Shown here: piece by piece, positions 34,592 to 64,000 of the stretch | How positions within the stretch are numbered: position 1 is the first letter of the stretch | How the letters are laid out: each line of letters opens with the position of its first letter | NCBI GenBank assembly: GCA_037447655.1 | Contig: JBBHKE010001475.1 | Location: 20,172-84,171 of the forward strand | Reading direction: 5' to 3' | DNA length: 64,000 nucleotides | From: Zygnema cylindricum | Taxonomy: Eukaryota; Streptophyta; Zygnematophyceae; Zygnematales; Zygnemataceae | Position numbers and translations under genes: made by a program | Notes under the pieces: model-generated | What the model saw: only the letters and a program-made list of their open reading frames with translations | Databases searched by the model: none | Told to the model about the DNA's origin: nothing

Positions 34592-36851
34592 TAGTGGATG
34601 GATTCTTGAAGTTGTGCACACATTGAGTATTTGACCTGGCAAGATTTCTTACACAACAATGGGACAAGGACCCTGATGTGCTTCGAGACAAAAATGAGAC
34701 GCGACGTGACGCTTTTTTTTGTGAAATAAATTTATACTATGCTTTTTCACTTTCTTCGTACGGCAAAATATTTTATCTGTGCAGCATTCAGTTTTGGAAA
34801 AAATCAGAAAAACGACAGAAATAAACCCTTACCTTCACCAATAGGCTGATGTTTTTTCCGCCACTTAAAAACATTTTCCACCGTGCACACATGTCAGATT
34901 GTTAACCCGACGGTTGCCATGGAAAGTAAAAGATTTCACCTTCCGATTGGCGGTCTCAAATAAAAAATTGGATCTTCGTGCACGGAGAAAATATGTTTTT
35001 TTTCAAAAAACGTCAACACTAAATGCAGTAAATTTCTGCGAGCGTCTACTTTAGCGACGGGGTCCACTGTGTCAAACTGAAAATAGTGTTTCGACCGGAT
35101 TTGGCGCTCACTATTGTTAGACCCATTGAGGTCAAAATCTGGAAAAGTGTAAAGTCTAAGTGCACTGGAAAAAGACAACGAAACGGATTGATCCCCATAA
35201 TGATGGAAACAACTCAACAAAAGGACGTATAACGACGAAAAAAAAGAGCTTCAACGACATTCTGTACTTTTTTCAAATTTGAAATCTGAACGGGCTATCC
35301 AACATTCTGTACGGATTCAAAATTTAAAATTATAAACGGGTCTCCACTTTCTAGCTGTAGCTGTCTTTGTCAGACAGAAAATGTCGACACTCCGCAAGAT
35401 TCGCTCTGCAACCTTGTGATGTCTCCTGCGAGTATTTGGCTGCCACCTGTCGTCAACGCTGTCAAGGTTTCGAATTTCAACACGACGACTTCAATGTGCG
35501 ACTGTTCGCGATACTCGGTTTGGTCGCTTTACAAATATCACGGCGGCAACGAGGATTTTATGGTTGAAGTGCACGCGCAAACTGTCATTCGGCACTCGAA
35601 AACGCATATCCTCGCTACTAAATCTAGGTCCACTTTTAGGGCCGAATCCAGTTAGAACTCAGCTCAACGTTTAAGAGCGTACTCAAAAGGACATTTGACA
35701 ACTGGCGGTGTAACTTCGTACGACATTTTTCTCTTGTCGGTGGCCACCAGCTGTTACACCGTATTGGATGAGGAATGTATACTGACCACCGACTGCTATT
35801 TCAACAGGGTAGTAATCTAACTATTTCGACCAAATTGAGGCAGCCGCATGTATATAAGTTCCACACGTCATGAAGGAAATCTGATTCGTTTGGCGTTGCA
35901 AAACTTCGAAAATTGGACTTTACTGCAACACGCGGCATGCTTAGTTGGAGTTCAGCAATTCATGCCTTGTGATGACAAAGCTTGACTTTTTGTCCTGTGC
36001 CAAATCACGCAAATCACGCACTTAAAACTTACAAACACCAGTGCAGTAAATTAAGAATTAGTAAAGCCTGACCGTTAAAAAGTCATTGTGTATCATCTCC
36101 GGAGGGTACTCGTACATTAAAATACCAGATCCACTGTGCCACCAGAGATCCGTACAGTAATTGTAAATTAAATGGAAGTCAATCCACCTGATTGGCTGAG
36201 AATATAATCTTGGAATTGTCTAGATCCTGAGTTTTAACCTTCAGATCGGATTTTTGAGACAAGATTTTTCACCGTGTCTGCAGTTTGAGCTTCAATTTTA
36301 ATGTGTGAAAACGTTTTGACGATCGTACTTTACACGTATTTTAACGCTAGCTACGCGTACAAATTATGGGACAATTACGAAAAAACAATGTTTCCACACG
36401 TTTTCGCACCTTAAAACTACGAATTCAACGGTCTGTTGTGACTTTCGCATTTTGTTAGACCATCGTCAGTTTATGACTTATGAGCTGCAATAATTAGGGT
36501 TAGAAAGAAGTTGCAAATATTTTGTAGAAATTATTACATTTTTTTTTCATTCGAGATTTTTCACTCTTTTTGACACAAATTTCGAAGATGAAACCGAATT
36601 TCATCTTTCGTGCTGTTGTGTGAAAAAATATTTGTGTTTCTTTGTTTGTATGTCTATACCTGCTATTAGTCAATTGTTTGCTTAACTTAAAAAATTAAAG
36701 TTTCAATTGTAGTTCTTGTTTAAAGAGAAGGTGGCAACACTGCTGCTTGGTGTACACATAAACTTTAACCTATCTTGAGTTCAACAACTGTACATAATTT
36801 GTTTGTTTCCTGAATGTTCAGACTTGGTCATTTTATAATTGATTACATCAA
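34592..36851. other. Intergenic DNA upstream of katanin
   Basis: At 34845-35021 lies a remnant of the CGCCACTTAAA subfamily (F/G/Q). The rest, including a less AT-biased patch at 35340-35660, holds no supported exon and includes the katanin promoter. Confidence 0.45.
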
Positions 36852-41825
<4,974 letters not shown>

Positions 41826-44884: not shown

Positions 44885-46832
44885 CTTGAGAATTTTTCCG
44901 ATAGAGGCGTCCAAAAAGTCGGGCAGCGAAAGTAAACGTAAAGTGTGACCCTAATAACCCCAAAATTCCAAAACTTTTAACAATTATCAATCTTTAAAAC
45001 TAAAACAAAAAGAAAGAAAAAAAAAAAAACAAGAACTTCACAAAGAACCTCACAAAAGAGTTAAAACGAAGAAAAAAAATAATCTTAACATATGTGCCGG
45101 AATGTAAAAAAAATAAAAGAGTTTTTGTTTTTTTTTTCTTTTTTATAAAGGGTGAAAAGCAATAGTACCGTTGGAGCCGTATCGAAAACAATTTTTGTAA
45201 AATGACTATATTCCGGAGCTTGTAGAAACTGAACCACCTGTTTTACAAAAAAAAAAACAAAGAACCCACCGTAATCCGCAGTTCCGTTAAATTGAACGTC
45301 TCTATGAACGTGGTTATGTTTCAAGAAACAAAAAGTGACAACCCAATTCAAAACCCAAATGAAAAAAAAAAAAAATGATATAAACCATACGAGCATAACC
45401 CCGACAAAAACCTCAAACAAACAAAAAAAACTAAACAATGTAAAAAAAAATGTAAAACAAAACAATGTAAAAAAATCTCTACAAAACCCGATGGCTCACA
45501 AAATAAAAAGAAAATAAAAGAAAAAGAAAAACTTACGAAAACATTTTCAAAAACGCGTAAAGCAAATCCTTTAAAAAATCTTACCTTCGCAATAGCCACA
45601 GCCTCGTCCAATCCCGGAGGAGGAGAATCGAGAAGTTCGCCCAACTTTAGTTCACTCAGCTGATAAGACCCATTTATACCCATTTTTTCTGTTTAAACAT
45701 AAACATGAAAAAATAAAAAAATACAAACTACTCCGAGAATGACTAAAAAGAGCTGGGCACAAAAAGGAAAAGGAGAGAAACGTAAGGAGGGAGAGAGGGA
45801 GAGAGGGAGGGAGGGGGGGAGGGGGGGAGAGAGAGAGGGAGAGATTAAAAATCTACCAAAAGTTGAAGACAAACTAAACGTCGCTAAAAAACCAGAGAGG
45901 GAGAGAGAAAGGGAAAAACAAGGACACAGAAAATTTATATAAATACATATACACATATACATATATACATATATACATGAACATACATACATATATACAT
46001 ACATACATAAATAACATACAAAAATAACATACATACATACATGCATATATAAACACATATAAGATTAAGTTCCCATTTGTACCCACCTGATCCGCCCATC
46101 CCCCGAGGCCCATCCCATCCATGAAGTCCTTCACGCCCGAGGACCCGTCCTCACCCTTGGTGGCGGACCGGAACTCCTCCCGGGCCTGCTCCGGATCAAT
46201 CTGCCCGGGAAAACAAGGGGGCGAGGGAGGAGAGGGAGAGGGGGAGAGAGAGAGTGAGGGGACAGAGAGTGAGGGGGAGAAAGTGGGGGAGAGAACAACA
46301 AACGGGTTTTCTTTTTACTAGTTTTTTACTATTTTTCTTAATCTGTCTATATTCGTCTTTTTCTTTTTTTTTCTCACCTCCATCGCAAATAGGAGACCGT
46401 CAGTTCCATCCACTAGCACTGGCAGCCCCCCTGTGACATCCTGTCACACCCCGGTGCACTCCCACCACCACCATCAGATATAGAGAGGGAGAGGGCGGAG
46501 AGGGAGAGGGAGAGGGAGAGGGAGAGGGAGAGGGAGAGGGAGAGCGAGAGGGAGAGGGAGAGGGAGAGCGAGAGCGAGAGGGACAGCAAGAGCCAGAGAC
46601 CGAGTGAGAGGCCGAGCCAGAGTGCGATTGAGAAGCGAGAGGGAGAGGGAGTGAGAGAGAGAGGCCCGTCGTTTCCCACCTGGTCGAAGCTGTCACTGAG
46701 ACTGTGGGCGGGGTCGGTGGAGACGAGGAGGGTGGGCTGTCCCTCGAGAGCATATCGTACCGCCAGACTTCCCGCGGTACTGGTTTTGCCCACTCCTCCC
46801 TTCCCTCCTACCAAAATGAATTGGCGACCGGT
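44885..46832 (-). CDS. GET3/ArsA-type ATPase, probably the plastid form; middle exons only
   Basis: GET3 ATPases chaperone tail-anchored membrane proteins; the plant plastid form is GET3B. Six minus-strand exons: about 46832-46680, 46440-46378, 46200-46087, 45659-45585, 45237-45169 and 44950-44885, all with phase-0 junctions. They carry the deviant P-loop [23 protein letters not shown] (switch I region), [84 protein letters not shown]. The exon holding the P-loop has no clear AG acceptor; upstream is a pure pyrimidine tract leading into the 10-N gap, so the transit-peptide exon is missing. The C-terminal half (client-binding helices and the rest of the fold) is also missing before the next gene. 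Confidence 0.85.
45776..45845. repeat. GGGAGA polypurine tract in GET3 intron
   Basis: Purine-only stretch on the plus strand, pyrimidine-only on the coding strand. Confidence 0.9.
45943..46055. repeat. (ACAT)n-rich microsatellite in GET3 intron
   Basis: Alternating ACATAC/ATATAC units over about 110 bp. Confidence 0.85.
46486..46665. repeat. (GAGAGG)n minisatellite in GET3 intron
   Basis: Near-perfect hexamer GGGAGA repeated more than 15 times, then decaying into GAGCGAGA variants. Confidence 0.92.
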
Positions 46833-46931
46833 CGGAGAGGGAGAGGGAGAGAGGGAGGAGGAAGTGGAGGGGGTGACAGAGGAAGAGGCAGAAGCTGGAA
46901 AGGAAAGGAAGGGGGGGAGGGAGAGAGGGAG

Positions 46932-46941
46932 NNNNNNNNNN
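46932..46941. other. Assembly gap (10 N)
   Basis: Ten ambiguous bases within a GA-rich repeat. The true gap length is unknown. Exons missing on both sides suggest much more than 10 bp is absent or that two contigs were wrongly joined. Confidence 0.98.
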
Positions 46942-48026
46942 AGAAAGAGAAAGAGAGAGAGAGAAAGGGAGGAGGAGAGGTGGCAAATAAACATAAAAAG
47001 AACGATAAAAAGCCTTTAAAAAGAAAAAAAAAAAAAAAACATCGACATAATCTCCTTCGTTTGCGGAAAACTAAAGAAACAAAAGGGAAAACACTTTTAT
47101 ATTAATAATAAGAATATGAAGAAATAGCGACTAAAAATGAGTATAGCAATAATTACTAAAAATGAGAAAGAAAAAAAAAGAAAACACTCCAAAACAACAT
47201 TAAAAAAAACCTAAAAACACGAAGGAAACAAAAAATCACCAAGATATAATCTGAAAATTTTGTTTAAAAACAAAAACCTCAACAAAAAATGAGAAAACAA
47301 GCCAAAAAAAAAAAAAAACTTTGAAACACCCCTGGAAAAATAAAAAACATAGAAAATAAACTCTAAAAAAAAAAAATCTAAAAAGCCCTGAAAAATATAA
47401 TTTAAAAAAATATATCCCTCCAAAAAAACTCGAAAAAGCACCAAAAAACTCTAAGAACCATTTAAGAATAAAAAGAAACTCTACACAATCCCCTCCCCTC
47501 CCACCCCCTCACACCCCACCCCACCCCCCTTAGCCCCGCCCAAAAAAAATCATTATAAAAAAAAACTTCCCAAAATATTTGAAAAATACCCAGAAACCAA
47601 AAACCCCAAAACTTCTCTCAACAACTCCCCATAAACCCTAGAAATACCCTAAAAACTACCCTAGAAAACCTTAAAAATACACTAAAACACCCTAAAAATA
47701 CCCTACTATAATCCTAAAAACCCCTAAGAATACCCAACCAAACCCTAAAAACCTAAAAGCCCTAAAAAACACGAAAACAATTATAAATTTTAGCAAATCT
47801 TACAACTCTGGAAAAAAAAGGACAGGCCATAATCTATTATTATAATTGATTTCAAATTAATTACGACGCGGTTATTTTTTTATTTATTTTTTACGAGGCA
47901 TTTGAACGTAAGATTTCGATCGAGCGTAAAAAAATAAGGTTCCAAAAAAAAAAAAATCATAAAAAAAAATGAATGAATGAATAAATAAATAAATAAATAA
48001 TAAGATTAAAAAATATATATAGTTAC
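46942..48026. other. Very A-rich sequence right of the gap
   Basis: Poly-A-rich DNA; at 47632-47770 it carries many degenerate CCCTAAA-like words. The expected third and later exons of the proteasome gene are not here. Confidence 0.6.
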
Positions 48027-50670: not shown

Positions 50671-50688
50671 GTCCTTCGGGACATCCGT

Positions 50689-50720
<32 letters not shown>

Positions 50721-50773
50721 GGCCCCTGCGCAAGGATGACACGCACAAATCGAGAAATGGTTCAAATTTTTTT
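50671..50773 (+). ncRNA. U6: U6 spliceosomal snRNA
   Basis: Nearly the same as plant U6 along its length. It has the 5' hairpin GTCC-TTCG-GGAC, ACAGAGA at 50704-50710 (pairs with the 5' splice site), the catalytic AGC within GATTAGCATGGCCCC, the GCGCAAGGATGACACGCA internal stem-loop, and a T7 terminator at 50767-50773. The 5' hairpin is one pair shorter than in Arabidopsis and the end reads GGTTCAAA rather than GGTCCAAA. Upstream USE and TATA support an active Pol III gene. Confidence 0.96.
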
Positions 50774-52194: not shown

Positions 52195-52307
52195 CCCTGG
52201 TAGCCATTGAAGTATTGGATTCTGCTGTCCGGTTGTTGCCACGTGTCGTTCGCAGGTGTCGAGTGTGTCGGTGCCACATGCTGGCTTTCTCCTGTTTCCG
52301 ATCCGCC

Positions 52308-55304
52308 ATGGCTAAAGTTAAGATTCACATTCTGTATTGGTGAGCTTCTTTTATGGAAATGGTTCTATTTGAGTTGCTTGACTTTTTGATTTTATTGACT
52401 TTTTGGCGTTTTGACATTTTGGCGTTCTGACTTTTTTGGCTTTTTGACTTGTTGACTTTCTACCTTTTTTTCCTTTGACTTTTGACTTTTTGACTCTTTG
52501 ACTTTTTGACTTTTTTACTTTTTGATTTGTTCGGGGATGTCTTTAATTTTGTTTTGGAATCTCTGAGTTTTAGTTTTTTTTTTTTGCTATTTATGTGATT
52601 ATTTCTTCTTGACCCTGTATTTGTTTTGTTTTATTAGGCCTTGCTTCACTTTTTTGTCGCTTCTGCTTTCTTGGCTCTTCCTTTTTTATTTTTATTTTTT
52701 TGTCTATTTTTGTTTGTTTTTGTGTTTGTTTTGTTTTGTCTTATCGCATATAGTGTTGTTTTTCGGTTTTTTTTTTCTTTGTTTTTTATCCTTTTGTTCT
52801 TTTTTTTTGGTGATGTATGTGGATGAATTTTCGTTTTTGTTGAAAATTGTATGTATTTTTAGTTTTGTATTTATGTTTTAATAGATTCCATGTCCGTTTC
52901 TCATTTTTAACTTTTCGTTTCTGGTGTTTTTTTTTTGTTTTTTGGTTTTTTTGTTTTTTTTTGTTTTTTTTTCATCTCTTTCCGAACAGCGGTGCCTGAG
53001 GTAAGCTTTTTGGACTTTTTTTTTCCCCCTATTTTCACATCCAAGGAAGAAGCCAGTCGCCATCCTGTTTTTTTGTCATTTTTTTGTTTTTGTCGTTTTC
53101 ATGTTTTGTCTTTTTATGTAATACCAGTGTCTATGGAAGCCAGTTGCCGTCCAGATTTTCTGTCATTTTTTGCTTCTGTCTTATTCTCCCTTTTTTTTGT
53201 ACTTTTTTTCTTAAAACAGGGTATATAAAGAATCCAGTCGCCCTCTACATTTAATTCATTTATTGTTTTTGTGTTATTCCACTTATTTTTGTCTTTTCCT
53301 GTAAAAACAGGGTACCTGAGGAAGGCAGTGGCTGTCCAAAATGCCCTAAAGCAGAAGTTTCCGGGGCAACTGGAATTTTCCCTCCAGGGAACCCCAGGGG
53401 CAACCGGGTTTTTGGGTCAGTTATACCCCTTCGTACCCTTTTTTTTATCCTCTTTTCGTTCCCTATTCTGTCGTCTTATTTTCTTTTTTCCCCTTGTTTT
53501 CTGTTTTTATCTTTTCCCTGTTTATATGCTGTACTTATCCCCTTTTTATCTTGTTTTTTATCGTCTTTTTCTCCTTTAATCTCCTTTTTTTCCCATTTTT
53601 ATCCCCTTTCTCTTTTTTTTATCCCTTGTTATCCCCTATTTTTTCCCTTTCTTATACCTATTTTATCTTCTTTTGTATCCTCTTTTTTTTATTTCCTTAA
53701 TTCGCTTTTTTATCCCATTTAAACCACTTTTTATCCCTTCAAATTTTCTCCCTTCTTTTCATCCCATTTTATCCCTTTCTTTATCTCTTATGTACCCTAA
53801 TTTACGCCTTTTATTACCTCTTTTTCGTCTTTTTTATTTATCAGCTTTCTACCCCTTTTTGCCCCTTCTTTTTAAATTAAAAATGTACAATTTTTTGAAC
53901 TTTATTGGATTCATTTTTTTATTTTCTTTAAGCCCAGTTGACACAAGGTCGAAAAAGTTTTCTTTTTTTGGAGTTTTTTGGGGTTGAGGAGTTTTTTTTT
54001 AGGGTTAAGAGATTCTTTTACGGTCCTGTTTGAGGATTTTTTTTTTATTATTATGGTTTTTTTAATTTAGAAGTGTTGAAGGCTGAAGATAGAAGTTGAG
54101 AAGGAGAGAGGGAGACAGGGAGAGGAAAGGAAGCGAGAAGGGGAGGAAAGGAGAGGAGAGTAGGAGAGTAGGAGAGAAGGAGAGGAGAGGAAACGGAGAG
54201 TTGGAGAATAGAAAGGAGAGAGGGGGGCAGGGAGAGAAGGAGAGGAGTGAGGGGGCGGAAAGGAGAGGAGAGTGGGAGAAGGAGAGGAGGAGAGAGGGAG
54301 AGAAGGAAAGTAGGGGAGAAATGATGTTAAAGCAGACGTTTCCATGTGCCTATTTTCCGTTACAGAAGTACAAATTGTGGGAGGGCCTCTTCTTCACTCC
54401 AAGAAGAATGGAGATGGATATGTGAGTAATTTCAAGTACCTGAGATTGTTCCCTCCCCCTCCCCCTCCCCCTCCCCCCTTTTTTTTTACCCTATTTTTGC
54501 CTCTTTGTACCATACGGACGCCACAGTACACATTTTTTTGTGTGCAGAGTACAAAAAAGTACAAGAGGTGTAAAATTTAAAACCAACCAATGAAACCTAT
54601 CGATTGGGAGAGAAGGAGAGCAGAGGAGAGAGGGGGAGGGAGAGTGGGAGAGAAGGAGAGGAGAGGGGGAGGGAGAGTGAGAGGGAAGGAGAGGAAATGA
54701 GAGGGGGAGGGGGAGTGGGAGAGTAGAGAAGGAGAGAGGGAGGTAACTCTCTAACGCGTAATTGACATCATGGGGCACAAAAAGACGACATGTCAAGATT
54801 AAATGAACTTTTTGTCGGTGATCAAAAAATAAAAATATAAACATATACGTATTTTTATATGTACATATAATTTCTTACCTTTTGTACTTTTTTGTACTCG
54901 GCACATATTAAATCCGTATGGCTGTGCCTAAAGGGTACAAAGAGGTGAAAATATCAAAATAATAAAGGTGAAAATATCATAAATGATAAAGTTAAAAATA
55001 TCAAAATAATAATGGTAAACATATCAAAATATTGAAGGTTAGATATAACTCCCACCTGTATATCTGTAAAAGAGTTTTTTGGCTATTGTTAATTCGACTC
55101 TTAGTTGTCTGTAGAGAAAAAAATATTCACCGAGGGAAAACTTTTGAAAATACTTAATGGACATCTTTCTTCCTCTTCTTCTTTTTCTTCTCCGTTTTTT
55201 TTTGTGTTATTTTTTGTTTTTTCATTTAATAGGTGGACTCCGCGGAAAAAATGCAACGAATCATAAATGGTGTCGAGGCCTATTTGACCTCAACCGATAA
55301 ATAA
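52308..55304 (+). CDS. SELENOW: Selenoprotein W with UGA-encoded selenocysteine, complete
   Basis: A small thioredoxin-like (Rdx family) redox protein. Five exons join in exact phase: 52308-52339, 52990-53000, 53311-53415, 54366-54421 and 55233-55304 (TAA), giving 91 residues against 87 in mammals. The start is GCCATGG. Residues 1-16 read MAKVKIHILYCGA-U-GY, where U14 is TGA; this is the CxxU redox motif of SelW. Then ALKQKFPGQLEFSLQGTPGA, TGFLGEVQIVGGPLLHSKKN, GDGYVDSAEK and a final helix, matching the SelW blocks FPG, GTPxATGFFEV, LIHSKKxGDGYVD. Exon 2 is an 11-nt microexon holding the TGA. All introns are GT-AG. A SECIS-like fold lies downstream at 56171-56235. If TGA were read as stop, only 13 residues would be made, yet the downstream frame is fully conserved in four exons. 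Confidence 0.92.
52377..52520 (+). repeat. GACTTTTTG minisatellite in selenoprotein W intron 1
   Basis: About twelve imperfect copies of a 9-10 bp unit TGACTTTTT. Confidence 0.85.
52990..53000 (+). other. 11-nt microexon carrying the selenocysteine codon
   Basis: CGGTGCCTGAG is bounded by a long pyrimidine tract and AACAG on the left and GTAAGC on the right. It contributes the third base of Cys11, then Gly12, Ala13, Sec14 (TGA at 52997-52999) and the first base of Gly15. Both phases are required to join exons 1 and 3 into the SelW frame, which makes a chance match unlikely. Confidence 0.88.
54095..54318. repeat. GGAGA polypurine tract in selenoprotein W intron 3
   Basis: Purine-rich over about 220 bp, following about 600 bp of T-rich intron. 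Confidence 0.88.
54605..54745. repeat. GGAGA polypurine tract in selenoprotein W intron 4
   Basis: Similar units to the intron-3 tract. Confidence 0.88.
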
Positions 55305-55355
55305 TTTGTCTCTTTCTGGAACTCCTATTGGTCAAAAATTGGTAAGTGAATCTTT

Positions 55356-55389
<34 letters not shown>

Positions 55390-56170
55390 CAGGAAGAAGG
55401 CATTGGTTTCTCAGAAGGCAAAAAATTTAGAAGGTTTTTTAGAAGGCTTTTTAGTAGGTATGTTGTGATTTTTTAAGAAGGTTTTTGAAGGTTCTTTTCA
55501 ATTTTGCTTTTTTGTATTTTGGTTTTTTAACTTGTTTTGCGTGTAAGAAAACTCCTCCAATTCTTTTCGTATTTTGTTTTTTTGTATGTTTTCTTTTTCA
55601 TGTTTTGTGTCCTCGTTGCTTTTGAAAAACATAAATAGAAGAGGTATATATCGAGGAAATTCTTGGTCGATATATTGTAATATCAGTACAAAGTAATATC
55701 GACAGACCGAAAAATCGATATTTATATTCGAGTTTGCCGATAAATAAGTAACGAAATAAATATCGATATCGCGATAGCTGGCCATAATTCATCGATAAAC
55801 TAATACCAAACTATAATATATATTTCGCCAAATCTTAACCGAACATTTGATTGGCTGGAAATTATGTGCACAAAATCTGATTAAAGAAAGTTTTACTGAA
55901 CGAAGTCAAACATTTGGTGCATGGAACTTTTTTTCGGACGGCAATAAATTGTCTTTTCCAAAGTAGTTGCTCATTGGAAAATGGGCAGAAAATGAAAGTG
56001 ATAATAGAAAATGGTAGGAAATTGGATTACGAGTGTGGATTGGGCGTTTTATAACTGACAAAATGGAAAATTGGTTCTGTGAAATGGCGTAGATTTGAAA
56101 GCTCAAAGACTTATTATAGTATTTTTTTGTTTCCTTTTCTTTTTACAGGCGATTTTGGCGAATGTTTTAG
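55305..56170 (+). other. Probable spliced 3' UTR of selenoprotein W
   Basis: Two candidate introns follow the stop codon: 55342-55392 (GTAAGTG donor, T-run, CAG) and 55458-56148 (AG|GTATGT donor, TTTTTACAG acceptor). If both are removed the SECIS begins only about 125 nt after the stop codon; unspliced it would be about 870 nt away. The first intron is very short (51 nt) and therefore less certain. Confidence 0.5.
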
Positions 56171-56235
56171 CGAAAATATGACAGAATCGACTGAAAGAGG
56201 AGAATATCCTCAGGAAGATTCTCGACTTTCTGCCC
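56171..56235 (+). promoter_or_regulatory. SECIS element candidate (form 2-like)
   Basis: The core ATGA is at 56178-56181 and its partner GA at 56224-56225. Helix II pairs AGAATC (56183-56188) with GATTCT (56217-56222) and CTGA (56191-56194) with TCAG (56210-56213). An unpaired AA follows at 56195-56196, 12-13 nt after the quartet, the spacing expected of a SECIS. A mini-stem GGA/TCC above the AA gives form 2. A weak helix I is possible below the quartet (GCGxAAA with TTTxTGC). It recruits SBP2 and the Sec elongation factor in known systems. Confidence 0.72.
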
Positions 56236-58244
56236 GGAAAAATGAGAAAAAAACTTTTTTTTAACATATTTCCGGTTCTCGCTTTGACATGGGAATTCTG
56301 CCAATTGGGGCAAATCGGGGTTTTTGACAAATTATTAATCGGTCAAAAACTAAAATTGTAGTCAAAACTTGTCTCTTGTGACAAATTTGATCGATAATCT
56401 TTTACGTATAAAGAAGAAAATATTTGTGATGTATCTAGTATGAATAAAATAATAAAAAAACAGCTCATTAGTCATTTTACCAAAAAATAGTCATTTGGAG
56501 AAAAATTAACACAAAAACCGGAAAAGTTTTTAAAATTTTTTGGATAGATGAGTCCAAAATATTCCTCTTCTCTGTAAATAAAGTTTCATTGAGTTTGATT
56601 TTGGTGTGATTTTGTCTTTGGTCATTTCCATAAAAAAACATAGAAATAAGTGCATGAAAAAGAACATTTTTTTTCCCTCTTCTGTGACTTCTTTTACTCT
56701 TCTCATCCTTCTTAAGCTTCTAGTTCTCCTCTCGAGCTTTAGGTTTTTACCTCTCCGTCCCTCTGTGCTTTCTTTATCTCTCCTCTTTTTTTTAGGTTTT
56801 TCTCTTTCCTTTCAATTTTCTCCTTTCACTCGTTTCTTCCTCCTTTCTTTTTTTCAATCTCCGTCTTTTCTCTACGTCTATCCTTCCTCATTTTTTTTCT
56901 GTCCTTTCTTTCTTTGTTTTCAATCTCTTAAACTTCCTTTACTTATTTCCTATCTTTGTCCTTTCTTTCCCCTTATTTTACCTCTCTCCTTCCTCTCATT
57001 AACTTTCTTCCTTGGTTTCCTATCTTCTATGGTCACGTAGATTGTCGATTTCCATTGGACCTTAAGTTATATTTTTTTAAAAAGACTAAAACTGTCACCA
57101 GTCAATTATTCTTATGCCTACATTATTTCATTGTTCTGTTTTCTTTCTCTTTTTCTAAATAATAAGTTTGTTTATCATTTACACAAACCGAATATTAATA
57201 TTAACCTAATAACCTAATATTAGTTAGCCATATTGATCTGTGATATTAACCTAATACTGAGACTACTTTTCCCCTTTAGTTTTGTGGATTTCAAGGAAGC
57301 TTTCTTCGACGTTGGTCATCATCGTTTAAAAGGGGTATACATACCTGTATAATGCTATGTTTTTTTTTTTTATATACGTTTAAAACAATTTCGGCAAAAA
57401 ACAAATTTAGGTCTCGAAGGAAAGCACCCCGAAATTGCTCACTGTTGTTTTCCTTCGACTTTTTTTGTTTGTGTCAAAAAAATAAAAAAAATTATAATAA
57501 TAACAACAATAATGTGGCATTTGTACTTCAGAAACCTTATTGAGTCTCTGTCGGAAATAACCGCTGAAGGCTAATATATGACAAATGGTAAAGGACAACA
57601 GCAGAATGAGAAAAGACAACTAAATATCTAGAGAAAGACAAAGACAATGGAAAAGAAGACAGAACAAATAGTAAAAGACAAAAAGGCCAGGGAGGAGGAA
57701 GGACAACTAATTATCTAGCAAAAGACAAAGGGGGAAGGGATAGGAACAGAGGACAGTAGAGGACAGGAGAAGATTACCAAATGGCAAGGGAGAAAAGACA
57801 AACGACAGCAAAAGAAGACAGAGGGGAGGACAAGAAAATAACTATTCAAGAGCAAAAAAGAAAAGACAAATGACAACAAAAGACAAAAGACAAAGGATAA
57901 AGGACACACATAAATCTCTACCTAAATCTCTTCCTAATACTATTCATTCCTCCTTCCAAGCAACAACATTCCAGATACCTTCTTGCCTACAAAGCATTAA
58001 AAAAACAAAAAAAAAACAAAAACACGAGGTTTTTGTCCTATTAACTATATTGCAAAGTGGAAATGTTTTGCTCATGATGGGATTGTTAACACCATTTTAT
58101 TTGATGTTTTAGATGGAAGGTTTACAAATCTGAAGTACTATACTGTGAATAACTATTTAAGTACTAGAATTTTCGGTGTCAGGACATTTGACTCTATTTT
58201 GACTCTTTTGCCATTTCACCAAGCTTCTAGTGTCTTGGGTGCCA

Positions 58245-58392
58245 ATCCTCCCTCTCCCTCTCCCTCATGCTCTCCCTCTCCCTCTCCCTCTCCCTCTTGC
58301 TCTCTCTCTCCCTCTTGCTCTCTCTCTCCCTTCCCTCTTGCTCTTGCTCTCCCTCGTTGCCCTCTCCCTCTTGGTATCCCTCTCCCTCTCTT
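58245..58392. repeat. (CTCTCC)n tract
   Basis: CTCCCTCTCC hexamer units with TTGCTC interruptions; the plus-strand mirror of the GGGAGA tracts elsewhere. Confidence 0.88.
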
Positions 58393-59663
58393 TAGGGGTC
58401 ACTTATGCTTGTCCCACTGAGTTCTCGACATCTCAACATTCTCAACAAACCCTTCCTTTACAATCTTCATTAGCACGAGAATTGAGATTTTGTCCGTGAT
58501 TTCGATATCTTAAAAATTATTATTTAGGCTCCTCTCGTCCTATACTATGGAACCCCATCTCTTAGACGTCCTGACTTTGTTGTAGGACTCTCTTTGACTC
58601 GCTCCATCCCACGTTTGTATTGATCTAACGGTTCTATTGTCTTAAGTTTTGTTTTGCTAGACATTTTTTTGTTGGCTCATTGGTAGACTTTATGGTGGGA
58701 CACTTTTTCGACTTCCTTCGTCCCGTATTTCATACCGATCTAATGTTCATAGGTCATTAGCAAGTCCTCCTCATGATTTCCCTCAGGGTTTTTGTCTTAC
58801 CATCTCAAGGGATACTAATGCTCAAGAGATAATGGCTAGGTGTAAGATTGTTCCTTTGAAGAGAGTGAGATTGGGGGGCCTTTGAAGGCAAGCTTGGGAA
58901 TCGAGTTTATAGAGCATCTTTTAAACAACATTGCCCACTCTCTTATTCAGGTGGCCCTTGGTATATTTGTCTTCAAGACCTTTAGACAGTGTCGGTGAGC
59001 TTTTCGGTTTCAACAATATTTTGAGGATCTTTTAACGCTTCGTGCACCGACTCCCACCATTTCAATTCGTAACTTTGAGCCTCTACAATACGTTAAGGAA
59101 CTCGCCACTTATTTCCATCTCTCAAGGTACAATAATTAAAATGTCTCGTGCTGTCTTACACCTTGAGTAGCGGCTGCGGGCTTTGATGATTTTTTAGTTA
59201 GTTATCGGTTAGTTCTTTATTACTAGCGGAAACATTCCTCTTCAAATATGTTATATCCTCAAAATGTTGTGATTAGTAGACATCATCAAGCCAAATGGCG
59301 ACAATTCCCCTATCTGCACGGGCAAACTTTTGTCCTACTCCATGGCCCGTGATATGAGTATATAGTGTTTGGTGGTGTTTCATTACTATTTTTTTGTCAT
59401 GGGTTGCTAATAAAGGTTTGCGAATTGGTGCTCTATGACCATTGGATCCCCGTTTCAACTAGATTCTCCTCTATGTTTATGTGTCGGTTGCTTTTATATA
59501 GTGGATCTTAACCTTATCTTTTCAAAGCATATGATTGCCCACGTGACCAATTTTCCAAGTTTTCCCTTTTGACTCCATCCTCCTACCTTGAAATGGGGGG
59601 AGGAACCTAGTTTTTTCGAAAAAACTTATTCGTATAATTTGAAGTTTATTCTCTTTAAACTTC

Positions 59664-59665
<2 letters not shown>

Positions 59666-59692
<27 letters not shown>
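59666..59692. repeat. (AT)n microsatellite
   Basis: Pure AT dinucleotide run. Confidence 0.9.
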
Positions 59693-59694
<2 letters not shown>

Positions 59695-60394
59695 AGTACT
59701 AGTGTTGTGTATCGCGTAAAAAGTTATCACCATCGAACGGTTAAAGTCCATGACATATCGCACCGAGACAAACAAATCATATCCCATTATGTATTTGAAA
59801 ACATGCAATACAACTTAAATTTAGTACTTAATAAATTTATATAATATATTATTTTATTGAATATTGAAAAGTAAGTTGTAGTAAGTCTTAGGAATTTGAG
59901 TTTAGGACTTAAAATATTTTTGGACCACCAACTGTTCAACTTTATGTATATTTAGTGTGGATTTTTTAGTATCTTCTCGAATAGTTATCTTTGAGTAAAT
60001 TAGTGTGTACGACCGCCTATGAATGTAGACGTGAAACATATCTCTCGGATATTTTGGGTCTAGATATTGTTACTAGACAATTTTGGTCAAAGTACATAGA
60101 TTTTTGTCAGTAGATATTTAGGTGAACCTTGTACATACGTTTTAGATGTTTTCTAGATCTTTTGAGTATTTAGTTCACTTAGGATTGATCAATTCAATAT
60201 AAAATGTTTATTCTACACAAAGTTAAGGAAATTAGAGCACTAAGTGCAGTTTAAGGTGTTTTGTGATCTATTGTCTTTGATTTGCTTGTAGTACATGTTT
60301 GTTTAGTTGAAAGGCCTCTTTCATTTGTAGTTACATATCTTACACTATTGATCTAGTCTGATAGGTATTCCTCTTTGGGTTTGCTTCTGCTAAC

Positions 60395-61575
60395 ATGTTT
60401 GATAATGGCTCAGCTCCTCCTGCAAGTGCTCCTATTAGCCCTGGTGCTCCACCTGCTCCTCTAGGGACGAATATCCCAGCTGGTGTAAGTGTGACTCTTA
60501 GTGGGAGCGGATCACAACCGAGTCTAAATGCCCCTGACCTTCAACAGGTTATGGGCCCACCGCCCAAAATGCCTACCTTTGATGGATCGGACTACTTGTA
60601 CTGGGAAGATATCAGGCTTCTGTAAGAGGGACTTGTCATCCATTGTGGATGGGACTGTTGATGAGACTGCACCGGATTGGAGAAAGAAGAATCTCCACTG
60701 CCTCAACGTTTTGAAGCAGTCTATGACAAAGGAGTTGGTAATGTCTTACCTTGAGATGAAAAAGGCTTCTCAAATTTGGTTTAGTGTACATGCTATGTAT
60801 GTTCAGCTAGATGTCACTGTTCACACTAATATAGCAACATAAATCTTTGAATTTAGATATTCTGGAGGAAGTATGTCAGATCATTGCCATGCTATGAAAA
60901 GGTTGTTATTTCAGAGTACAAGTGCAAGTGGGGACTTTTCACCACCTCAGCAGGCTATGTTATTGATGAGAACTTTACCTAATGAGTATAAGGGAGCCAT
61001 GGATAGGCTTAGGGCTCTACTTCAGCGTCAATGGAACATAGCATTAGCAATTCAACTTATTTTGAGTGAAGAAGCTAACCAGATTTCACAAAGAGGTAGT
61101 AGTAAGTCTGTTCGTGCACTAGCTAACCAGTTTTCGGATTCTAAGATTGACATTGGCAGTGGCAGAGGTAGTGGTCCTAAAAGGTCACCTTTGACATGCT
61201 ATTATGTGATGAAAAAGGGCATGTGTTCAGAATTTGTAATGCATACAAACGAGCGAAAGCCACAAAAAAATTTTGTTGTGGATGGGACGAAAGTCGGGTT
61301 CCTTCTCAATCAGGTGGCCGACCAACTAGTCTCTTCAACGAACTTAAGGAGGAGGACGTGAGCAGCTTTCCCATCAACTATGAAAATAAATACTTTGCGA
61401 TGGCACAAACAACAAAAGGCGTGGAGGAAGACGAATGGCAATGGACTCCAGTGCATCTGCCCACGTGCTGCAATCGCCATCTATTTGAGAGTATTCAATA
61501 TGTTTTACCCATCAAAATTTATTTTAGTGATGATACCTTTGTTGAGTCGAAAACAAAGGGGAGGGTGTAACTTAT
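60395..61575 (+). pseudogene. copia gag-protease region, frameshifted
   Basis: The N-terminal Pro/Ala/Ser-rich stretch leads to KMPTFDGSDYLYWE, the copia gag start (FDGxNYxxW). A shift near 60605 moves the frame to WRKKNLHCLNVLKQSM. A further frame carries AMLLMRTLPNEYKGAMDRLR. The zinc knuckle C-YY-C-DEKG-H-VFRI-C (about 61197-61240) requires another shift. The protease active-site triplet survives as Asp-Ser-Ser around 61444-61452, in a different frame from the following KIYFSDDTFVESK block. Not functional as it stands. Confidence 0.8.
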
Positions 61576-61618
61576 GTTGAATGTAGAGGGAAAACTTGTG
61601 AAAAGGGTCTTGTAAAAT

Positions 61619-62572
61619 GTGTTGCTTGTCCCAGCTTTTAAAAGAAACTTTTTCTCTACATCAGTGGTAGAAAAGAAAGGTTTTAAAACTATATCTGAGA
61701 ATGGGAAGAAAACAGTGAGTATGAATGGGAATATAGCAGAGGGATTTGCTGGAGAAAACAATTTGTATCGGTTGAGTCTTGCAAATGATAATGACAATGA
61801 TGTTATGTACTCAAGTGTAATCAATGATTGTGATTTATGGCATAAACGATTAGGACATGTGAATTATGATAGATTAGAAAAGATGGTAAATCAAAAAATG
61901 GTGGAAGGTGTAAAAATTAGTCAAAACCATCATCAATATATATGTGATGGTTGTGCAATGGGAAAAATTCATAAGTTGCCTTTCCCTTCGCAAACTGATC
62001 ATAGAAGTAACAGGGTGATAGAACTAATTTATTCAGATGTATGGGGGCCATCTAGGTATCCATTTGTGGGAGGTGCTAAGTTTATGCCTACCTTTACTGA
62101 TGACTATAATAGATTTACTACAGCTTATTTTTTGAAAAGCAAGGATGAAGTCTTTTCAAGATTTAAAGAGTATAAGGCTTGGGTTGAAAATCGGCATGAG
62201 AGAAATACAGCAGGATTCAGATTTGATAATGGAGGGGAGTACATTTCTAATGAGTTTGCAAAATTCCTAAAATTGCATGGAATCTCACGTCAGTTAACCG
62301 TTCCTTATTCTCCAGAACAAAACGGTGTTTCAGAGAGGATGAATATGACCATATTAGAGTGTGATAGGACAATGATGGCAGATATGGACATAGATTTAAA
62401 ATTTTGGGCAGAGGCTATGAATTGTGCAACTTATGTGAGAAACGGGCTAGAAACAAGAGCAGTAAAAGATAAAACTCCCTACGAAATGTGGACAGGACAC
62501 AAACCAGATGTAAGTCACTTCAAAGTTATTCGAAGTAAGATATTTATGCTAGATGATGATCCACAGAAATAG
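61619..62572 (+). pseudogene. copia integrase, nearly intact, ended by premature TAG
   Basis: About 317 codons open. The pre-integrase HHCC zinc site is H75, H80, C109, C112 (LWHKRLGH and CDGCAMGK). The catalytic D,D35E triad is D140 (YSDVWGP), D203 (FDNGGE) and E239 (PEQNGVSER). A stop at 62570-62572 cuts the protein. The same frame continues with a GIFLGYDDHAKGYKVYD block, so the TAG is a point mutation in the polyprotein. Confidence 0.88.
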
Positions 62573-63079
62573 AAATTAGAGCCAAAAGGCATACCAGGGA
62601 TATTTCTAGGGTATGATGATCATGCCAAGGGTTATAAAGTATATGACATTAAGAGAAATAGAGTCGTGGTAGCTAGAAACATTACAGTGAAGGATGAGGG
62701 AAAAAGGAGTAGATGTATTTAGTCAACGTACAGATGAAAAGAAAGATCGACGTGTTGATTATATCTTTTTAGAGGAAAATCCTATGTTTTTCAAGAAAAA
62801 TATAGAAAATGCATCTACATCAACTCAAAGTGACTTTCAATCATCTTCTCCACCAGAAAAAAAAATGTTACGTCTGAAAGAGTTGCAGACTCTCCAGTAG
62901 CAGACTCTCCTCTACCTCAAGCTAAAACTGAATCACAAGAAGAATCACATATATCGAGGATAAGGACCCAACCATCTATACCAGCGAAAGAATTTCCAGG
63001 TGGAGTTAGGCGAAGTGCACGACTCAAAGGAGAAAATGCAGCCTTTACTCACTCAGCACACACAAAAGATCCTCTAACG

Positions 63080-64000
63080 TTGACGGAAGCTTTTTCGAGT
63101 AATAAAAGGGAACACTGGGTGGAAGCCGTTAATGAAGAAATGAAGTTCATCATGGAGGCCCAAACTTCGGATCTGGTGGAACTTCCTCCAGGGAGAAAGG
63201 CTATTGGAAGTAAATGGGTGTTTAAATTAAAATTCAACCCATGTTATACCATAGACAGGTATAACGCTCGCTTGGTTGCTAAGGGATATAATCAAAAGGA
63301 GGGGATAGATTATGAAGAAAATTTTTCACCGGTTGTAAGGTTTCCATCTGTCCGCATTTTACTTTCATTAGCTGCCATAAAAGATTTTGACATCCACCAA
63401 ATGGATGTCAAAACTACCTTTTTGCATGGTGATTTAGATGAGGTCATTTATATGATGCAGCCAGAGGGTTATGAGGAAGCAAGAAAAGAAAATCTTGTGT
63501 GCAGACTTATAAAATCTTTGTATGGCCTAAAACATGCCCCAAGGCAAATGAACCGAAAGTTAGATGAGTTCTTGACAGGATTAGGATCTAGTATAATTAG
63601 CTCTGATCATTCAGTATATGTGATGTGTGGTTATAATCCAGATGAGGTGATATTCATTGTTGTGTATGTTGATGATTTGTTGCTAATTAGTAGGAACAAA
63701 TAAGGAATTGTTAGAGTAAAACACACACTTAATTCACAATTTGAAATGAAGGATTTGGGTGAGGCAAAAGATATTCTTGGCATACAAGCTGAAAGAGATA
63801 GAGAAAAGAAAATCATTAAGCTAACTCAAAAAGAAGCGATAGGAAACATGTTGGATATATTTGGCTTGGCTGATGCCAAAGGTTGTGCAACTCCTATGGA
63901 CTATAAGCAAAAAATTGAAGGAATGGAGCATGAGTTTGGAGTCATAATAGATGAGGAACTCAGTGCAGAAGAGCAAAAATTTATGTCCCAAACAGAGAAG
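63080..64000 (+). pseudogene. copia reverse transcriptase, with stop/frameshift
   Basis: WVEAVNEEMKFIMEAQT, GRKAIGSKWVFKLKF, ARLVAKGYNQKEGIDYEENF and QMDVKTTFLHGDLDEVIYM are RT fingers and palm blocks. The active site is VVYVDD near 63664. The frame stops at 63703 (TAA). Past a small shift the connection continues with LNSQFEMKDLGEAKDILGIQ and runs to the window edge. RNase H is not reached. Confidence 0.88.

Follow-up and report, generated by a model that had tools for sequence, protein, structure and literature searches.

The locus considered here raises the question of whether an in-frame TGA in a small multi-exon gene is read as selenocysteine (Sec), and whether this takes place in a relative of the land plants. 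Within the window (the whole stretch of 64,000 nucleotides that was analysed), it is very probable that the forward strand carries a functional SELENOW gene, belonging to the nuclear genome of a Sec-decoding streptophyte alga outside the land plants, in which UGA is read as Sec. On sequence grounds, the gene structure, the protein family and the TGA at the Sec position are established, as is the occurrence in the same assembly of tRNA-Sec, SecS and eEFSec.

The spliced model comprises five coding exons, all on the forward strand: exon 1 (52308-52339), which encodes MAKVKIHILY and ends two bases into a Cys codon, exon 2 (52990-53000), an 11-nt microexon with GT-AG flanks that holds the TGA (52997-52999), exon 3 (53311-53415), exon 4 (54366-54421) and exon 5 (55233-55304), whose coding part ends at the stop codon TAA and which probably continues as 3' UTR to 55341. 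Once joined, these exons form 276 nt in phase, every intron being of the GT-AG type, and encode 91 residues followed by TAA, with a single internal TGA situated in CGAUGY; the longest exon codes for only 35 residues. The motif near the N terminus is CxxU, read as YCGAUGY in the spliced frame, and the TGA is in frame and at the conserved redox position. We infer the splicing from the frame, the splice sites and homology. The first-pass annotation had described five in-phase exons giving a complete SelW of 91 residues with TGA at the Sec position, and the model agrees with it down to both ends (52308 and 55304), the size of the 11-nt exon carrying the TGA being an addition to that description. 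An internal TGA together with an 11-nt exon makes a structure that ordinary gene annotation likely misses.

Affiliation of the predicted protein to the Rdx family is well marked. Indeed, the Pfam Rdx profile (PF10262) matches it with an E-value of 7.1e-15 (55.4 bits, for a cut-off of 22.6) over residues 5-78 of 91 and profile positions 1-72 of 74, and two solved structures are matched, namely selenoprotein W (2npb, E 3.6e-20) and C17orf37 (2ljk, E 2.2e-5). Among solved structures, SelW is a closer match to the predicted window protein than any other Rdx protein. It resembles SELENOW (PDB 2npb) in length, in the position of CxxU and in the HSKK and GDGYVD blocks, but may be set apart from it by the location of the Sec codon on an 11-nt microexon and by a probable separate SECIS exon.

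A search of a database of 5.8 billion proteins returned 52 candidate relatives, all 52 at E <= 1e-3 (best 5.3e-31), and the column corresponding to Sec was examined in 25 of them. Tryptophan (CGxWGY) occupies this column in 14 of the 25, presumably because genetic codes that read TGA as tryptophan yield W, as judged from the protein rows; the other 11 start after the column or have an unrelated N terminus, and Cys was found at this position in none of the 25. The nearest relative (P0001) is 85% identical over 78% of the query and aligns without gaps to residues 21-91; as it begins downstream of the Sec codon, it is uninformative on that codon. SelW-like Rdx proteins exist in Cys forms, which have their fold family in common with the window protein but carry a Cys codon where the CxxU of the latter ends in TGA. 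A search of the whole assembly with the Rdx profile gave no match and missed even the SelW of the window, and is therefore uninformative on the number of SelW copies.

Sec decoding calls for a dedicated machinery, components of which were looked for in the assembly that holds the window (352,776,454 bases in 2689 contigs), with 14 control genomes. A tRNA-Sec gene (G000:C171:24996-25081) scores 74.5 bits, for a gathering score of 47, and the same interval is called by ARAGORN as tRNA-SeC with anticodon tca; it aligns to model positions 1-91, an alignment in which five positions are missing and two pairs of the acceptor stem are non-standard. At E <= 1, the tRNA-Sec model gives four matches in the assembly, one of them above the cut-off, and it gives matches in 14 of 14 control genomes, five of which have one above the cut-off. 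Of the three others, two of 41.7 bits are tRNA-Ser(cga) and one of 26.9 bits is a tRNA-Gly. An AT-rich box, aaataaata (in L001:1587-1618), lies 24-32 nt upstream of the tRNA-Sec gene, an arrangement that we take to be that of genes with external Pol III promoters.

Two protein components are also encoded. An exon of SecS (G000:C853:9126-9269, locus L005, Pfam family PF05889) was detected, and two exon pieces of this locus, once joined, match human SepSecS at E 2.7e-22; the Pfam family alone is not specific, since 3 of the 14 control genomes also match it. A second PF05889 match (L006) was not accepted as SecS, its frame of 655 residues looking, on reading, like an Orn/Lys/Arg decarboxylase. 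An exon of eEFSec (G000:C2570:590400-590498, locus L007) scores 32.1 bits, for a cut-off of 27, none of the 14 control genomes giving a match, and three pieces of the locus joined together match human eEFSec at E 2.7e-18. Absence of tRNA-Sec or EFSec from the genome had been named beforehand as the observation that would speak against Sec decoding; both are present.

Sec insertion in eukaryotic fashion would also involve a SECIS element in the 3' UTR. A probable 3'-UTR intron is predicted on the forward strand (55342-56148), opening with the GTAAGT at 55342, which follows 37 nt of UTR and is the sole GTRAGT within 55305-58304, and closing with the acceptor tttttacag that ends at 56148; an alternative acceptor at 55393, preceded by a run of T, is possible and would make a 51-nt intron. 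The probable 3'-UTR exon beyond it (56149-56262, forward strand, 56262 being the last base folded and not a mapped exon end) carries a candidate SECIS that begins 29 nt behind this strong acceptor. Its core (56178-56226, forward strand) consists of ATGA (56178-56181), AA (56194-56195) and CGA (56223-56225), with a helix II pairing AGAATC (56183-56188) with GATTCT (56217-56222) and an apical stem pairing 56197-56201 with 56207-56211. With the UTR spliced to 56149, the ATGA would start 66 nt past the stop codon.

The Rfam SECIS model found nothing in the window at its gathering score, nor in 52200-58500 or 56149-56270 at E-values up to 10, and a strict ungapped scan of 55305-61305 gave no site. 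A gapped scan of 55305-62000 produced this single candidate (-10.8 kcal/mol); in a rough-shuffle control of that scan, at least one site appeared in 6 of 12 shuffles, and a stronger site in 2 of 12. Under tighter criteria, which were chosen after the candidate had been seen, it is the only site in the 64 kb on both strands; when the 3 kb downstream were dinucleotide-shuffled 500 times, 17 shuffles held at least one equally good site, and when the whole 64 kb were shuffled 20 times, 12 shuffles held at least one on one strand. Chance sites being so common across 64 kb, only the place of the candidate counts, and not its presence in the window. Folded alone, the 51-nt core adopts both expected stems, helix II and the apical one, at -12.5 kcal/mol (z -1.49), and 15 of 200 shuffles do as well; over three lengths the z-scores are -2.23, -0.70 and -1.49, and the minimum is not the SECIS fold in the longer two. 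The spliced UTR folds at -31.5 kcal/mol with helix II imposed versus -37.0 kcal/mol freely, the free fold being better by 5.5 kcal/mol. The assignment of 56178-56226 as a candidate SECIS on a probable separate 3'-UTR exon is moderately supported.

Taken as a functional selenoprotein gene, the locus would be expressed as an mRNA in which five coding exons, and probably one exon of the 3' UTR, are joined. The factor eEFSec would bring Sec-tRNA(Sec) to the UGA in the 11-nt microexon, this delivery would be guided by the SECIS of the 3' UTR, and Sec would supply the last residue of the redox motif CxxU in a small thioredoxin-like Rdx protein, for which membership of the family suggests a redox role.

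Intron 2 (53001-53310, forward strand) contains about three decayed tandem units, spaced about 87-93 nt apart. Each unit (within 53006-53310) joins an acceptor-like pyrimidine tract to a decayed duplicate of the opening 20-27 nt of exon 3, and the intron seems to have been enlarged via duplication of its own acceptor. Since the UGA stands alone on a microexon, the skipping of which shifts the frame, since intron 2 holds these duplicated acceptor-like units and since the candidate SECIS lies on an exon of its own, Sec insertion might be placed under splicing control, with a choice among the selenoprotein, a frame-shifted product and an mRNA devoid of SECIS; we give this extension little credence.

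The origin of the contig was approached through the katanin p60 gene of the window (36843-41825, about eight exons). The encoded protein is 95% identical to that of a public contig (P0053) and, among the best 120 of 7848 matches, 58-62% identical to the named proteins with at least 98% coverage (Selaginella 62, Chara 61, Klebsormidium 60, Sphagnum 58). With only 61% identity in this protein, Chara braunii was discarded as the source. The second-best score among the same 120 belongs to a long protein whose record names the springtail Orchesella (67% identity across 56% of the query), a row that does not point to an animal, since Marchantia and Flemingia reach 79-80% over a similar stretch. In a tree of 26 rows (the window and 25 of the 120 listed), rooted on a single very long animal row, that of Orchesella, land plants group together to the exclusion of the window (SH-aLRT 97) and the window pairs with P0053. 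The window also falls outside Chara and Klebsormidium, with a weak SH-aLRT of 80, for one gene with long branches, and its exact place is unsure because the root row is very long. This one-gene tree puts the window with streptophytes outside the land plants, in line with the charophyte-grade source that had been proposed; as a guess, its class may be Coleochaetophyceae or Zygnematophyceae. A U6 snRNA gene (50671-50771), about 1.5 kb before SelW, is preceded by the element atcccacaat at a distance of 55-64 nt and, closer to the gene, by an AT-rich box, which we take to be like the plant USE and TATA elements.

Two other explanations of the locus have to be weighed. The gene could be a relic in which the TGA is a plain stop, as might be suspected from the decayed exon 3 duplicates inside intron 2 and from a SECIS fold that is not the free minimum; yet the frame and the splice sites are intact across 276 nt, a relative that is 85% identical aligns ungapped over residues 21-91, and tRNA-Sec, SecS and eEFSec are present in the assembly, which makes a dying or dead gene very unlikely. 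Alternatively, the contig of the window or those bearing the Sec machinery could come from another organism present in the assembly, and tRNA-Sec, SecS and eEFSec do each lie off the window's contig. Against this, the katanin of the window is that of a streptophyte, its U6 gene has a plant-like upstream element, the GC content at the tRNA-Sec locus (34-42%) compares with that in the window (34-45%), and the exon pieces of the SecS and eEFSec loci are, on reading, separated by low-complexity, pyrimidine-rich stretches of the same kind. Contamination is accordingly regarded as very unlikely, and a functional SELENOW of the alga itself is the reading retained.

Selenoproteins and Sec machinery have already been reported for streptophyte algae (Liang et al. 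2019, PMC6627142; Jiang et al. 2020, PMC7539508), according to the portions of these papers that were accessible. In those portions, Liang et al. ascribe a few matches in moss and liverwort transcriptomes to contamination (PMC6627142), Jiang et al. describe selenoproteins in Klebsormidium, Nitella and Chaetosphaeridium (PMC7539508), and a further paper, likewise in part, mentions one expanded selenoprotein group (PMC11096116). SELENOW is not named for any streptophyte alga in the accessible portions of PMC6627142 or PMC7539508. As far as these texts go, the published systems and the present alga are alike: each combines Sec machinery with a Sec-containing protein and stands outside the land plants. 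The interpretation given in the first-pass annotation is supported for SelW, for Sec at the TGA, for the streptophyte source and for the machinery, and it loses the surprise attached to Sec decoding in such a genome, selenoproteins being already known from streptophyte algae (PMC6627142, as partly consulted). A SelW in a streptophyte alga is a sound but expected finding, and is not claimed here as unpublished. It offers a clean case, open to checking, in which a relative of the land plants decodes Sec, and agrees with the published view that their ancestor lost this trait.

Several other features are encoded in the window. A protein kinase exon (714-1172) corresponds to the putative plant-type receptor kinase noted earlier. 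An exon for an ArsA/GET3-type ATPase lies on the minus strand (46413-47015), and its frame also contains a short stretch of Ns. Finally, pieces of a Ty1-copia type retrotransposon (61616-63703) are recognizable from gag-pre-integrase, integrase core and reverse transcriptase matches.
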